Shown: one piece after another, positions 1 through 62,743 of the stretch
How the letters are laid out: each line of letters opens with the position of its first letter
How positions within the stretch are numbered: the stretch's first letter is position 1
Source: Candidatus Rikenella faecigallinarum
GTDB taxonomy: Bacteria; Bacteroidota; Bacteroidia; Bacteroidales; Rikenellaceae
Reading direction: 5' to 3'
DNA length: 62,743 nt
Assembly (NCBI GenBank): GCA_019113395.1
Contig: DXHL01000013.1
Location: 1-62,743, forward strand
The notes under the pieces: generated by a model
Databases searched by the model: none
The model's input: the letters and a program-made list of their open reading frames with translations, nothing else
Told to the model about the DNA's origin: nothing
Position numbers and translations under genes: made by a program

Positions 1-161
1 GTAAACATTTCCAACAATAGTCCATTCTCACTTCCTTCAATCAAGGGGTTTCCATTGGAGTCAAATATTGGTATAGTACTTACACCACTATAAGAATCGC
101 TTATTATCGTGCTGCCGTCGGCGCCCGGAAAACAGTCCTTGCGGTCACTCTCAAAAACCGC
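1..161 (-). pseudogene. Start-less surface-domain cassette, copy 1 (partial at window edge)
   Basis: Read on the minus strand, the frame is open from just after a TGA at 162-164 to the window edge. It begins ESDRKDCFPGADGSTI and continues with a low-complexity S/G/N-rich stretch. The DRKDxFPGADGSTI block is the same one that opens the three other cassettes in this window. No ATG is in frame and the stop sits directly upstream, so it cannot be translated as it stands. The W and G of the usual WGRKD are changed to S and D here without an indel. The cassette lies directly behind the terminator of the neighbouring minus-strand gene. The 3' end is outside the window. Confidence 0.6.
105..149 (-). 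repeat. 45-nt conserved 5' cassette junction, copy 1
   Basis: This block matches 12718-12762, 53680-53724 and 62558-62602. It differs from the 62558 copy at only about 4 of 45 positions, including third codon positions. Core words are CCGCAAGGAC and GACGGCAGCACGATA in the coding orientation. Confidence 0.85.
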
Positions 162-11456: not shown

Positions 11457-11962
11457 ATCAATTTTCTTTTATTTCGGGTGTATCTATCCAGGGCCACTCT
11501 GGCGGGTCGTATTTCGACCGGCATGATGATTTCTTGTCGCTCCTTTTTCAATCCATGCCATCTTCCGAAGCGGCAGAGCTGCAGGGATAGCTTGACCGAC
11601 GGGTTGCTTCTGCAATCCGATGCCGCTCGACACAACAGTTCGTTTCTCATTACGAGATTATGATTGCGTCAAGCCCGGAGCCGGCGGAGGGCTGAAAGAG
11701 TGCCCGCCACAGCGTGCCCTCTCTTCCCTTCGCTGGTTGCGGGTGCCATTCGGTACGCGAATCGACAGATGTTTACCAATAGAGTGCGACTTCATCAGAA
11801 GTCGTGTAGGCCGAAGGTGCCACGGGCACTCCGACAGGGTGTTTGCTTGACGAATAAGCGGCGGCCTGCTCTGAGGCGAGCATGCTCCGCCGGCTTCGAC
11901 CTGAGGTGCCGACATGACTGTGCAGTTCGGTTCGAGTGACGAGCGGCACCCTTCTCGTGTCA
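11457..11962. repeat. Non-coding region with multi-hairpin module behind cassette 2
   Basis: No convincing gene is seen here. From 11741 to 11951 there is a set of hairpins. Block C (11741-11766, GTGCCATTCGGTAC core), block B (11785-11820, CGACTTC-loop-GAAGTCG) and block A (11860-11905, TGCTC-loop-GAGCA, then CCGCCGGCTTCGACCTGAG) are followed by an inverted C-like copy (11929-11951). Related blocks occur at 52679-52819, where A and B are in the opposite orientation. The part 11457-11740 shows only short frames without recognisable products. Confidence 0.6.
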
Positions 11963-12098
11963 GGGCTTCCTCGCTTGGGGTTTATCTTCTCTTTGCGCTC
12001 TCTTCCCTCCGGGAGAGGCTGAGCTGCCTCCTGCGCCTTTCCCCTCTTCCCCTACACGGATACCCCTGCGGATTACTCCCCCTTATCCCGCTCCTTCC
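11963..12098. repeat. ~135-bp repeat downstream of cassette 2
   Basis: It matches 52871-53005 at roughly 90% identity by eye. Shared words include GCTTCCTCGCTTGGGGTTTA and ACGGATACCCCTGCGGATTA. In both places it ends about 14-15 nt from the stop codon of a cassette, so it is a shared 3' flank. Confidence 0.9.
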
Positions 12099-12111
12099 CT
12101 TCCCCCTCTAG

Positions 12112-12765
12112 CTACTGCTGTACGCAACGAACCGACATGCCGACAGAACGATATTCCGCAACAATTGGAGATGAACTGGAAAAGTAAAAACATAAATTCT
12201 TAGATACCATCCCACTTATGTTGGCTGACCAACTACAAATATTTTCACCAATGCTACTTAAATGTCCCGAATAAGTTGTTCGACGACGACCCGCTGCTGG
12301 ATACCATGTAAAATTATGATATTGCCGACCATTAGTAGCAAATAAGTCTTTTGTGATGGTCTGATTTCCTGCAGTGTAAAAAGGAAAATTGGTTGTTGTA
12401 AAATCTTTCCATGTTGTATCTGAGGGTATCCGCCAGCCTTGTGGGCAAGGGTCATAAGCACTTTTGCCTCCCCCTTCACCCCAAATGGTGTTATTCTGGA
12501 AACTCTCATTGCTGGCATACCAATCCCATGGGGTTACCGTATTGAAAATGAATGTCAGCGGGTGCTTAATGGAATAGACTAATGAGGTGTTTCCGTTGAT
12601 AACTCCTGAAGTAGTAATGTTTACTTTGCTGTATCCTGTGCCATCTTCTGTTAATTCAGAGCTCCCATCTGCTCCATAAAGAGCAACGGTTTCTGCATTA
12701 GGTGTTCCTGATTGCTGTATCGTGCTGCCGTCGGCCCCCGGGAAACCGTCCTTGCGGCCCCATTC
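12112..12765 (-). pseudogene. Start-less FISUMP-like surface-domain cassette, copy 2 (complete)
   Basis: 217 codons open on the minus strand from just after TGA TGA (12766-12771) to TAG at 12112-12114. It opens EWGRKDGFPGADGSTI, then a variable region, a middle part PLTFIFNTVTPWDWYASNES, the signature SAYDPCPQGWRIPSDTTW, WYPAAG, and ends SVGMSVRCVQQ. DPCPxGWRxP and the final RCV resemble the Fibrobacter-type paralogous (FISUMP) domain at the C-terminus of many Bacteroidetes surface lipoproteins. There is no start codon, ribosome site or signal peptide. The interior is clearly AT-richer than the flanking genes. It looks like a stored, silent domain, not a decayed gene: the frame is intact. Confidence 0.7.
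12718..12762 (-). repeat. 45-nt conserved 5' cassette junction, copy 2
   Basis: This is the same block as at 105-149, 53680-53724 and 62558-62602, with TGGGGCCGCAAGGAC at its start and GACGGCAGCACGATA at its end in coding orientation. Confidence 0.9.
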
Positions 12766-49251: not shown

Positions 49252-49259
49252 CAAAGTTA
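49252..49259 (-). promoter_or_regulatory. -7 promoter box for aroB
   Basis: TAACTTTG on the minus strand, 9 nt from the aroB ATG. The sequence around it, AAAAAACGTAACTTTG, also occurs on the plus strand at 49313-49328. Confidence 0.7.
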
Positions 49260-49320
49260 CGTTTTTTCGTGACTTTGGCCACATGACCGCCTCAGAGGTG
49301 CGCCAAGTCGGGAAAAAACG

Positions 49321-49328
49321 TAACTTTG
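49321..49328 (+). promoter_or_regulatory. -7 promoter box for the DUF4382 gene
   Basis: TAACTTTG on the plus strand, 6 nt from the ATG at 49335. It mirrors the aroB promoter. Confidence 0.7.
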
Positions 49329-52555: not shown

Positions 52556-52870
52556 CATTCCTCCTGAGCCTCCCTCTCTCCTGCTCCCAATAGGCAGCAC
52601 AAAACCTTATTCTTTCGTCTCGAATTTTATAGTATTTCCCTCGCCACGCTCCTAACCAACACACGGCTTCAGATTCTCTGGTGCCGCTCGGCACGCGAAC
52701 CAACTCGTATCAGCCACAAAGGGTTCTCAGGTCGAAGCCGGCGGGGAATGCTCCCTAAGGAGCAGGCCTCCGCATGGGGCGGCTTCGGCCTGCACGACTG
52801 CTCTCGCAGTCGGCTTCGCTTGTGTGTTAAATAGGAATGGTCATGCTGTGGGGACCCCCATATCGTGTTC
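52556..52870. repeat. Non-coding region with multi-hairpin module behind cassette 3
   Basis: No gene is seen. Block C (52679-52701, GTGCCG-CT-CGGCAC hairpin) is followed by block A inverted (52726-52773, TGCTCC-loop-GGAGCA) and block B inverted (52779-52819, CGACTG-loop-CAGTCG), compared with 11741-11951. Stem bases differ from the other locus in a paired fashion (CGACTG/CAGTCG against CGACTTC/GAAGTCG), suggesting the stems matter. Confidence 0.6.
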
Positions 52871-53005
52871 GGGCTTCCTCGCTTGGGGTTTATCTTCTCT
52901 TTGCGCTCTCTTTCCTCTGGAAGAGCCTGAACTGCTCCCTGCGCCTTCCCCCTCTTCCCCTATACGGATACCCCTGCGGATTACTCCCCCTTATCCCGCT
53001 CCTTC
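52871..53005. repeat. ~135-bp repeat downstream of cassette 3
   Basis: This is the second copy of the 11963-12098 repeat, roughly 90% identical by eye, placed identically relative to the cassette stop codon. Confidence 0.9.
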
Positions 53006-53019
53006 GATTTCCCCTCACG

Positions 53020-53748
53020 CTACTCCTGCACGCAACGAATTGAAAAAGCATATCCACGAGCACGAATACCGTTGTTCATAGTATTAGAAAGGTAAAAGAG
53101 TAATCCTATTGCGTTTGTTTGACTCACTGTGGATTGCCAGATATATCCTCCTGCACCTGCGTATCTAATGGCCCCTATAGCTGGGGCTAAAACACCTGCT
53201 GAAGGATACCATGCCAATGGTGTACCCGTACCTGAACTGGCCCCCTTGTAGAGGCGGCCATTAGTCTGGTGGAAATCTCCTGTCTTGCCATCCTCTTGAA
53301 TCACTCCTTTGATATAGTAGGGAAAGGTACCTGACAAGGGCTGAGAGGCATCTTCAGTTCGTGAAAAATCATTCCATGTGCCATTGGGAGCGATACGCCA
53401 TCCTCGGGGACAGGGGTCATATGCACTCTTGTCGGCATTGTCTCCCCATAATGTATCATTCTGATTATCATCTACTGTTGTATACCAATCATTAGGAACC
53501 GCAACATTATAAATAAATGTCAAGGGATTTAGGACGGTATACTTGAATGTATTGGCATTTTCTCCAATGATGGTAGTTATATCTACTTTTTTAAAACCTT
53601 CTATATCTTCTGATAATTCCGCCCCGTTCCCTCCATAAATTTTACATACAGTTGCGTTACCAGACATGGTTTCCTGCGTTATCGTGCTGCCGTCGGCACC
53701 CGGAAAAGCGTCCTTGCGGCCCCACTCACCCCTACCATATCGCACCAC
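53020..53748 (-). CDS. FISUMP-like surface-domain cassette, copy 3 (complete, no ATG)
   Basis: The frame is open on the minus strand from a possible GTG at 53748 to TAG at 53020-53022, about 242 codons. The conserved part starts EWGRKDAFPGADGSTITQ, then a variable stretch, PLTFIYNVAVPNDWYTTVDD, the signature SAYDPCPRGWRIAPNGTWND, AWYPSAG, and the end RARGYAFSIRCVQE. It is the same domain type as copy 2 but with a largely different interior. There is no ATG, no signal peptide and a strong terminator just upstream (53764-53796), so it is probably silent. AT-richer than flanking genes. It lies between tamL and the phage-like remnant. Confidence 0.6.
   Translation of the reverse strand: MVRYGRGEWGRKDAFPGADGSTITQETMSGNATVCKIYGGNGAELSEDIEGFKKVDITTIIGENANTFKYTVLNPLTFIYNVAVPNDWYTTVDDNQNDTLWGDNADKSAYDPCPRGWRIAPNGTWNDFSRTEDASQPLSGTFPYYIKGVIQEDGKTGDFHQTNGRLYKGASSGTGTPLAWYPSAGVLAPAIGAIRYAGAGGYIWQSTVSQTNAIGLLFYLSNTMNNGIRARGYAFSIRCVQE
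53680..53724 (-). repeat. 45-nt conserved 5' cassette junction, copy 3
   Basis: Differs from the 62558-62602 copy at only two positions, including conservation at silent codon positions. Confidence 0.9.
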
Positions 53749-62554: not shown

Positions 62555-62743
62555 CAGTGGGGCCGCAAGGACTGTTTTCCGGGTGCCGACGGCAGCACGA
62601 TACAGCCGGATGTATCATGGCCAAATCCAAATGCATCCAGGGTTTCGATTTATGGAGGAGACGGCAATATCTTAGCAGAGGGAACGGAAATGGGATTTAG
62701 AATATTAAACATTACGGAGAGTGGAGTGCTTAGTGGAAATACA
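62555..62743 (+). pseudogene. Start-less surface-domain cassette, copy 4 (partial at window edge)
   Basis: Open on the plus strand from QWGRKDCFPGADGSTIQPD to the window edge, including VSIYGGDGNILAEGTEMGFR and NITESGVLSGNT, which aligns with the same region of copy 2. There is no in-frame start codon before it; the frame is open back to about 62437 without ATG, GTG or TTG near the junction. It lies directly behind the double terminator of rplT. The end is beyond the window. Confidence 0.6.
62558..62602 (+). repeat. 45-nt conserved 5' cassette junction, copy 4
   Basis: Same block as at 105, 12718 and 53680, here on the plus strand. Confidence 0.9.

Follow-up and report, generated by a model that had tools for sequence, protein, structure and literature searches.

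The window analysed here is the whole of contig C25 (62,743 nucleotides), one of the 38 contigs of a 2,074,137-base Rikenella-like genome that is 98.65% complete and 0.21% contaminated. An initial annotation, made from the sequence alone, had described four loci in it that hold related but diverged surface-protein domains in frames lacking a start codon, and all four are present, two of them complete and two partial. Silent cassette B lies on the minus strand at 12112..12762 (coding 12115-12762, TAG stop 12112-12114) and is a startless open frame of 216 codons. Its 45-nt 5' block, WGRKDGFPGADGSTI (12718..12762, minus strand), is an exact match to nt 0-45 of the cassette of a full-length gene elsewhere in the genome, while its 3' block (11949..12131, minus strand) spans the stop and continues beyond it and is likely a second homology arm. 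Silent cassette C (53020..53724, minus strand; coding 53023-53724, TAG stop 53020-53022) is an open frame of 234 codons with a 45-nt 5' block at 53680..53724 and a 3' block at 52857..53039, both on the minus strand. The 183-nt blocks over and after the two stops are 89% identical and form a second common block that was absent from the initial annotation. The two partial copies, at 1..143 on the minus strand and 62558..62743 on the plus strand, are cassette 5' parts truncated by the two contig ends, since the window is the entire contig. The first 131 assembled interior nucleotides of the piece at 1..143 recur without a difference at the end of contig C30, which reflects either an assembly branch or a second copy. 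Among the window copies, the start block is 77 to 89% identical in direct and 91 to 94% identical in inverted comparisons. Two details of the annotation needed amendment: the start motif WGRKD does not extend to the piece that it placed at 1-161, which begins SDRKD, and the lack of a start codon holds strictly for cassette B but not for cassette C, where GTG codons lie in frame 21 and 24 nt upstream. Just past the 3' blocks, the window also carries a 48-nt sequence at 11858-11905 that is 83% complementary to 52726-52773, and similar palindrome-like repeats follow many other 3' blocks in the genome. A further imperfect inverted repeat of 31 nt (84%, 15-nt gap) lies at 49252-49328.

A 62-nt query from the junction, run against the whole genome, scored 40 matches among 53 candidates, with E values from 1e-26 to 1e-11, and the protein of cassette B gave 51 matches; cassette sharing is far beyond chance. 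The 51 matches consist of 43 complete cassettes, six contig-end pieces, the piece belonging to the full-length gene (C6:3-206), and C5:2464, a weak match at 26% that was left uncounted as a cassette. Two end pieces probably do not represent additional copies: C20:43549 overlaps C6:50171 and C25:39 overlaps C30:39, each by 131 nt. The cassettes occupy 21 contigs in both orientations. Moreover, contigs C25, C30, C20, C6, C12, C21, C2, C17, C33, C23, C24, and C13 end within a cassette or a 3' block, so the cassette family itself limits the assembly. The cassettes share the 5' block of about 45 nt and a post-stop block of about 155 to 165 nt, and beyond the latter the 41 downstream stretches that we aligned diverge. 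Strict G-quadruplex motifs lie within 10 of the 3' blocks. On the 5' side, the DNA is mostly unrelated from site to site except for a stretch of at most 24 nt continuing the full-length gene sequence, and 11 site pairs have at least 18 nt in common upstream, some of them through other flank DNA.

The cassette interiors are diverged but intact. Mean amino acid identity is 45% (range, 34 to 60%; 903 pairs), and the 43 complete cassettes contain no stop in 9,136 codons, against 345 to 644 stops in each of the five other frames and about 538 nonsense changes expected without constraint (from a codon tree of 17 substitutions per site, a length inflated by recombination). None of the 51 protein matches contains an internal stop either. 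The ratio pN/pS is about 0.5, and dN/dS is 0.27 in the 309 pairs with pS below 0.72. Decay of the interiors, which the initial annotation had named as evidence against donor cassettes, was thus looked for and not seen in the complete cassettes. Ordinary decaying fragments of past duplications of the tip gene might well lack an in-frame upstream ATG, GTG, or TTG, as 18 of the 43 do (2 of the 18 being cut by a contig end), and might begin a few codons within the 5' block, as some cassettes do; however, the uninterrupted frames, the pN/pS ratio, and the use of the same sequences in database alleles make this origin extremely unlikely. Nor do the cassettes look like small proteins translated on their own. 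An ATG, GTG, or TTG lies upstream in frame in 25 of the 43, and gene callers have named such frames in databases, but ATG accounts for only 9 of the 43, the upstream DNA is not conserved across sites, and the domain would be made without a signal peptide and an N-terminal part; we therefore regard separate translation as very unlikely.

Assignment of the domain to the FISUMP type, already made in the initial annotation, has some support, though it is weak. With PF09603, for which the Pfam cut-off is 33.9, the complete cassettes of the window reach 30.6 and 29.5 bits, and they reach 35.6 and 15.7 against a second curated FISUMP-type cut-off of 41.65; in the whole genome, 4 of 32 matches pass the Pfam cut-off. 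A structure model of the cassette alone reached a mean pLDDT of 77 and had no PDB match at an E value of ≤0.001. A C-type-lectin fold, an idea taken from papers on diversity-generating retroelements (DGRs), was not adopted for this model.

The initial annotation expected that a genome-wide search with the 45-nt junction would turn up many startless copies and one or few full genes, and what we found are many start-poor copies together with a single full-length gene. Contig C6 begins inside the cassette that terminates this gene, a 608-aa open frame (stretch L059, 3-1826, minus strand), so that 206 nt of its cassette are assembled and the 3' half is not. The encoded protein has, in order, a lipoprotein signal with LGSC, a FimA-type domain (PF06321), DUF4906 (PF16249), and then the junction VMMDRNLGATK...GLLYQWGRKD. 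Its N-terminal 540 aa are single copy in the genome; the two remaining matches to the N-terminal part are weak (32% and 35%) and lie within other lipoproteins. C2:63865, C3:1930, and C1:4050 were considered as further full-length partners and set aside as separate lipoproteins with C-termini of their own. Upstream, the neighbours are a fimbrillin-like Mfa_like gene and DoxX. A structure model of a complete database allele, P0001 (mean pLDDT, 87), matched PDB chains of the Porphyromonas tip protein Mfa3 at rank 1 and Mfa4 at ranks 9 and 11, and the NCBIfam model of the FimD tip adhesin scored 40, far below its cut-off of 170. In its lipoprotein signal, predicted FimA/Mfa fold, and extra C-terminal domain, the full-length gene product resembles a type V pilus tip pilin. 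One database record, P0002, is a 364-aa version of the gene whose last 10 or so residues are unlike those of alleles 97 to 99% identical to it, and it is possibly a truncated or switched-off allele.

Contig C33 starts right after a cassette stop, with a 3' block 88 to 96% identical to 42 silent ones, and continues into what we take from their sequences to be cmk and a MATE transporter gene. Sister species G002 and G006 have DoxX, Mfa_like, pilin, 5 to 6 kb, cmk, and MATE in this order; C33 is therefore likely the right flank of the full-length gene. In G001, DoxX and cmk are about 570 nt apart with no pilin gene between them. No strict G-quadruplex motif lies near the full-length gene in L059, and stretch L160 has a single one, at 2101-2128, distant from the 3' block.

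The assembled cassette of the full-length gene records its likely sources. Three silent cassettes match parts of it exactly and together account for all of its 206 nt: window cassette B at nt 0-45, C28:37665 at nt 27-106, and C21:7545 at nt 93-206. The second and third of these runs, 79 and 113 nt long, overlap by 13 nt, and the longest interior match between any two silent cassettes is 35 nt (903 pairs). Judged by these matches, the assembled cassette is a mosaic pieced together from silent ones. At four pairs of contig ends the overlap is exactly 131 nt, suggesting that the assembler worked with words of roughly that size, so that a false join by it over 13 nt is unlikely; PCR chimeras are a possible source of mosaic joins. 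The donors on C28 and C21 persist in the same assembly, which may mix cells.

Exchange of interiors, which the initial annotation had proposed to look for, is further indicated by two database alleles that end in silent-type cassettes. P0001 is 97% identical over the 608-aa query and ends in a different cassette, and its C-terminus equals that of P0113 over 215 of 215 aa. P0113 is a 226-aa protein with the leader MIFRPLFCLGV where the gene has GLLYQ, and it therefore stands in a silent-type context. No close donor of the P0001 cassette was found in this genome, the best full-length match being 55%. The other allele, P0003, is 90% identical over 59% of the query, and its C-terminus is identical at 211 of 212 aa to silent cassette C13:5514. 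The P0003 record begins like a rhamnose isomerase, continues from the middle of the tip-pilin gene, and looks like an assembly chimera; this allele is thus weaker evidence and could be a false join.

To compare cassettes across databases, we used the 79 proteins retrieved with the P0001 C-terminus, of which 72 (P0113 to P0184) were compared and the last 7 were excluded as weak or long. At ≥90% over more than 100 aa, 25 of the 72 have a counterpart among the cassettes of this genome or the C-termini of P0001 and P0003, and the junction is visible in 62. Among these proteins, 29 pairs in eight groups have at least 7 leader residues in common, and the cassettes differ in all 29, a result partly built in because the records are 90% clusters; one of the eight groups, with the leader NVGLLYQ, was discounted because it continues the full gene. 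Three cassettes of this genome stand elsewhere behind leaders of other sites: that of C8:18290 occurs in P0166 with a leader like that of C34:83588, that of C14:13024 in P0116 with a leader like that of C30:28635 (one residue different), and that of C20:29007 in P0131 with a leader like that of C32:26696. Silent sites therefore appear, from these combinations, to exchange cassettes as well. Equal leaders could also mark paralogous sites, since some silent sites have common flank DNA.

A site-specific recombinase acting at the conserved blocks, in the manner of a shufflon or an integron, would swap whole cassettes, and the short 5' block and conserved 3' block flanking each complete cassette, as well as two alleles that carry an entire other cassette, accord with such a system. 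Nonetheless, the join between two donors falls inside the cassette, in a 13-nt match, the donors are still present in the assembly, and the copies form no array but are spread in both orientations over 21 contigs. Site-specific exchange is thus highly improbable. Rather, the 43 complete silent cassettes are, on the combined sequence evidence, very probably donors that are copied, whole or in segments, by homologous recombination into the one tip-like lipoprotein gene.

At least two sister species have a retroelement at this locus. A genome search for PF00078 gave no reverse transcriptase in the present genome, and the same search found a match in 7 of 10 relatives; five of the seven congeners (G002, G004, G005, G006, and G007) have it within 3 kb of cmk. 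An Avd gene is present at the locus in G002, G006, and G007, and in the first two of these the stretch also contains the pilin gene. The Avd of G006 is above the Pfam cut-off, with a score of 51 below the NCBIfam cut-off of 80. Between the tip-pilin gene and cmk, G006 (L173, contig C50, 3621-8156) has a reverse transcriptase, Avd, and five template-like repeats, and G002 (L172, contig C2, 11352-14293) has a reverse transcriptase and Avd; both elements include an additional gene of 206 to 211 aa without a Pfam match. The five repeats of G006 are copies of the pilin 3' end between Avd and the reverse transcriptase gene, the last of which overlaps the start of the reverse transcriptase frame. In the best two repeats, template adenines are changed at 15 of 43 and 14 of 42 positions compared with 19 of 170 and 11 of 140 for other bases (Fisher P = 0.0007 and 0.0001), whereas the comparison made in the opposite direction falls short of significance (P = 0.08 and 0.58); in the three remaining repeats, an adenine excess is not apparent from the base counts. 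With its reverse transcriptase, Avd, and adenine-directed template repeats, the G006 locus is a DGR. In G002, neither a repeat search nor blastn found template repeats, so the term DGR rests there on the reverse transcriptase and Avd.

Sister species carrying a DGR at this locus, and an assembly that is 98.65% complete and broken at the full-length gene, leave room for a reverse transcriptase hidden in a gap, which would generate the variants here too. However, besides the lack of a PF00078 match, the fetched stretches of this genome, C33 included, contain no convincing remnant of reverse transcriptase or Avd; the best hits of the G006 reverse transcriptase are matches of 21 to 22 aa between its template-encoded start and cassette ends. 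Furthermore, the cassettes vary by indels and across the whole domain rather than at the template adenines of one repeat. We consider a hidden DGR exceedingly improbable, with copying from silent cassettes as the preferred reading for this genome. With cassettes here and a DGR at this locus in sister species, the genus seems to have two ways of diversifying a single pilin.

Relatives have cassette-like copies of their own. Cassette B was matched at an E value of ≤1e-12 in 8 of 61 family genomes, this genome included. In G003, G005, G006, and G007, FISUMP-like copies stand in short frames with their own post-stop blocks and with the junctions LSGFYF, AIRNPGSFYF, and AIRNPVAFYF. At an E value of ≤1e-8, a G006 cassette query gave 33 matches in G003, 34 in G006 (28 in frames shorter than 300 aa), 15 in G005, 7 in G007, 3 each in G002 and G004 (in long frames), and none in G001. 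There is one stop among the relatives' cassette matches listed, and a looser list added a few more matches with one stop. A partner gene of the cassettes in G003, G005, G006, and G007 was not found. In another Rikenellaceae genus, PF09603 matches number at least 120 in G036, 41 in G046, and 45 in G017, and 20 stretches (18 from G036 and 2 from G046) contain 22 short frames, the majority ending in the same tail. Across G036, G046, and G017 (L212 to L231), the short frames start and end alike, many being 5' truncated, and long frames of tandem FISUMP domains also occur, for example on contig C22 of G036.

We propose that the 5' block and the post-stop 3' block would serve as homology arms for a segmental, nonreciprocal, and presumably RecA-dependent gene conversion into the tip gene, with silent sites probably exchanging cassettes among themselves as well. 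In this proposal, the domain that varies would form the predicted ligand-binding end of a pilus tip, and a population would therefore display many tip variants, which may be useful against antibodies, phages, or changing glycans. The retroelement of the sister species may have been lost from the same locus in this lineage. It is conceivable, though rather unlikely, that the lineage replaced its DGR by a genome-wide domain archive that was first written by the DGR's reverse transcriptase, an idea suggested by copies with a fixed 3' end and ragged 5' ends, like retro-copies. The donor-cassette reading of the initial annotation thus holds in large part; the tip-pilin-like target, the genome-wide dispersal, and the sister-species DGR at the same locus had not been foreseen.

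Silent cassettes that feed one gene are a known kind of system, and variation from donor cassettes is known chiefly from pathogens: Neisseria, Borrelia, Treponema, Anaplasma, and Mycoplasma. In Neisseria, silent partial pilS genes feed the surface pilin gene pilE by gene conversion, and the silent copies of pilS and of Borrelia vls are clustered. Silent partial vls copies are described as feeding one surface gene by gene conversion (PMC4534519). Both systems are like the present one in that silent partial copies feed one surface gene, and pilS likewise concerns a pilin, whereas the present copies are scattered across at least 21 contigs and have a target that looks like a pilus tip. The functional pseudogenes of Anaplasma msp2/p44 (PMC4534519, PMC11946796) are alike in a single expression site with conserved ends, many partial silent copies, and whole as well as mosaic conversion; the likeness is one of mode, with homology not expected. 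The present target differs, being the C-terminal domain of a lipoprotein that resembles a tip pilin, from a commensal lineage of the Bacteroidales. For Treponema tprK, 53 silent donor cassettes are reported (PMC10063172), and one expressed gene, a large silent donor set, and segmental conversion are features in common, but tprK varies in seven short regions and here a single domain of about 210 aa is swapped whole or in segments.

The protein architecture itself is familiar from DGR systems: a DGR-linked lipoprotein with Mfa2 and Fib_succ_major domains is described from a human stool metagenome (PMC4159848), and a review states that DGRs diversify Bacteroides tip pilins (PMC12632263). Such lipoproteins and tip pilins have the same architecture as the gene product here, and sister species have a DGR at the same locus. 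In DGR systems, a reverse transcriptase mutates template adenines, whereas here a reverse transcriptase was not detected and the cassettes come ready-made. That 2025 review of gut Bacteroidales names DNA inversions as well as DGRs for tip pilins, and the terms "gene conversion" and "silent" are absent from its accessible text (PMC12632263); likewise, the accessible text of PMC4534519 makes no mention of Bacteroid or Porphyromonas. Within the accessible text of the open-licence literature, which comprises neither subscription papers nor preprints, we found no such system in Bacteroidetes, Rikenella, Rikenellaceae, or Bacteroidales fimbriae. New to the literature searched are the group of bacteria involved, the dispersal of the archive, a tip pilin as the target, and the presence of a retroelement at this locus in sister species.

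Short-read assemblies break at loci of this kind, and they call for caution. If the proposed mechanism is true, a commensal lineage maintains about 45 tip domains as a library, and a single genus seems to span species with the retroelement, with both, and with cassettes only. It would then offer a natural test of random mutation versus archived variants as a choice made by lineages.
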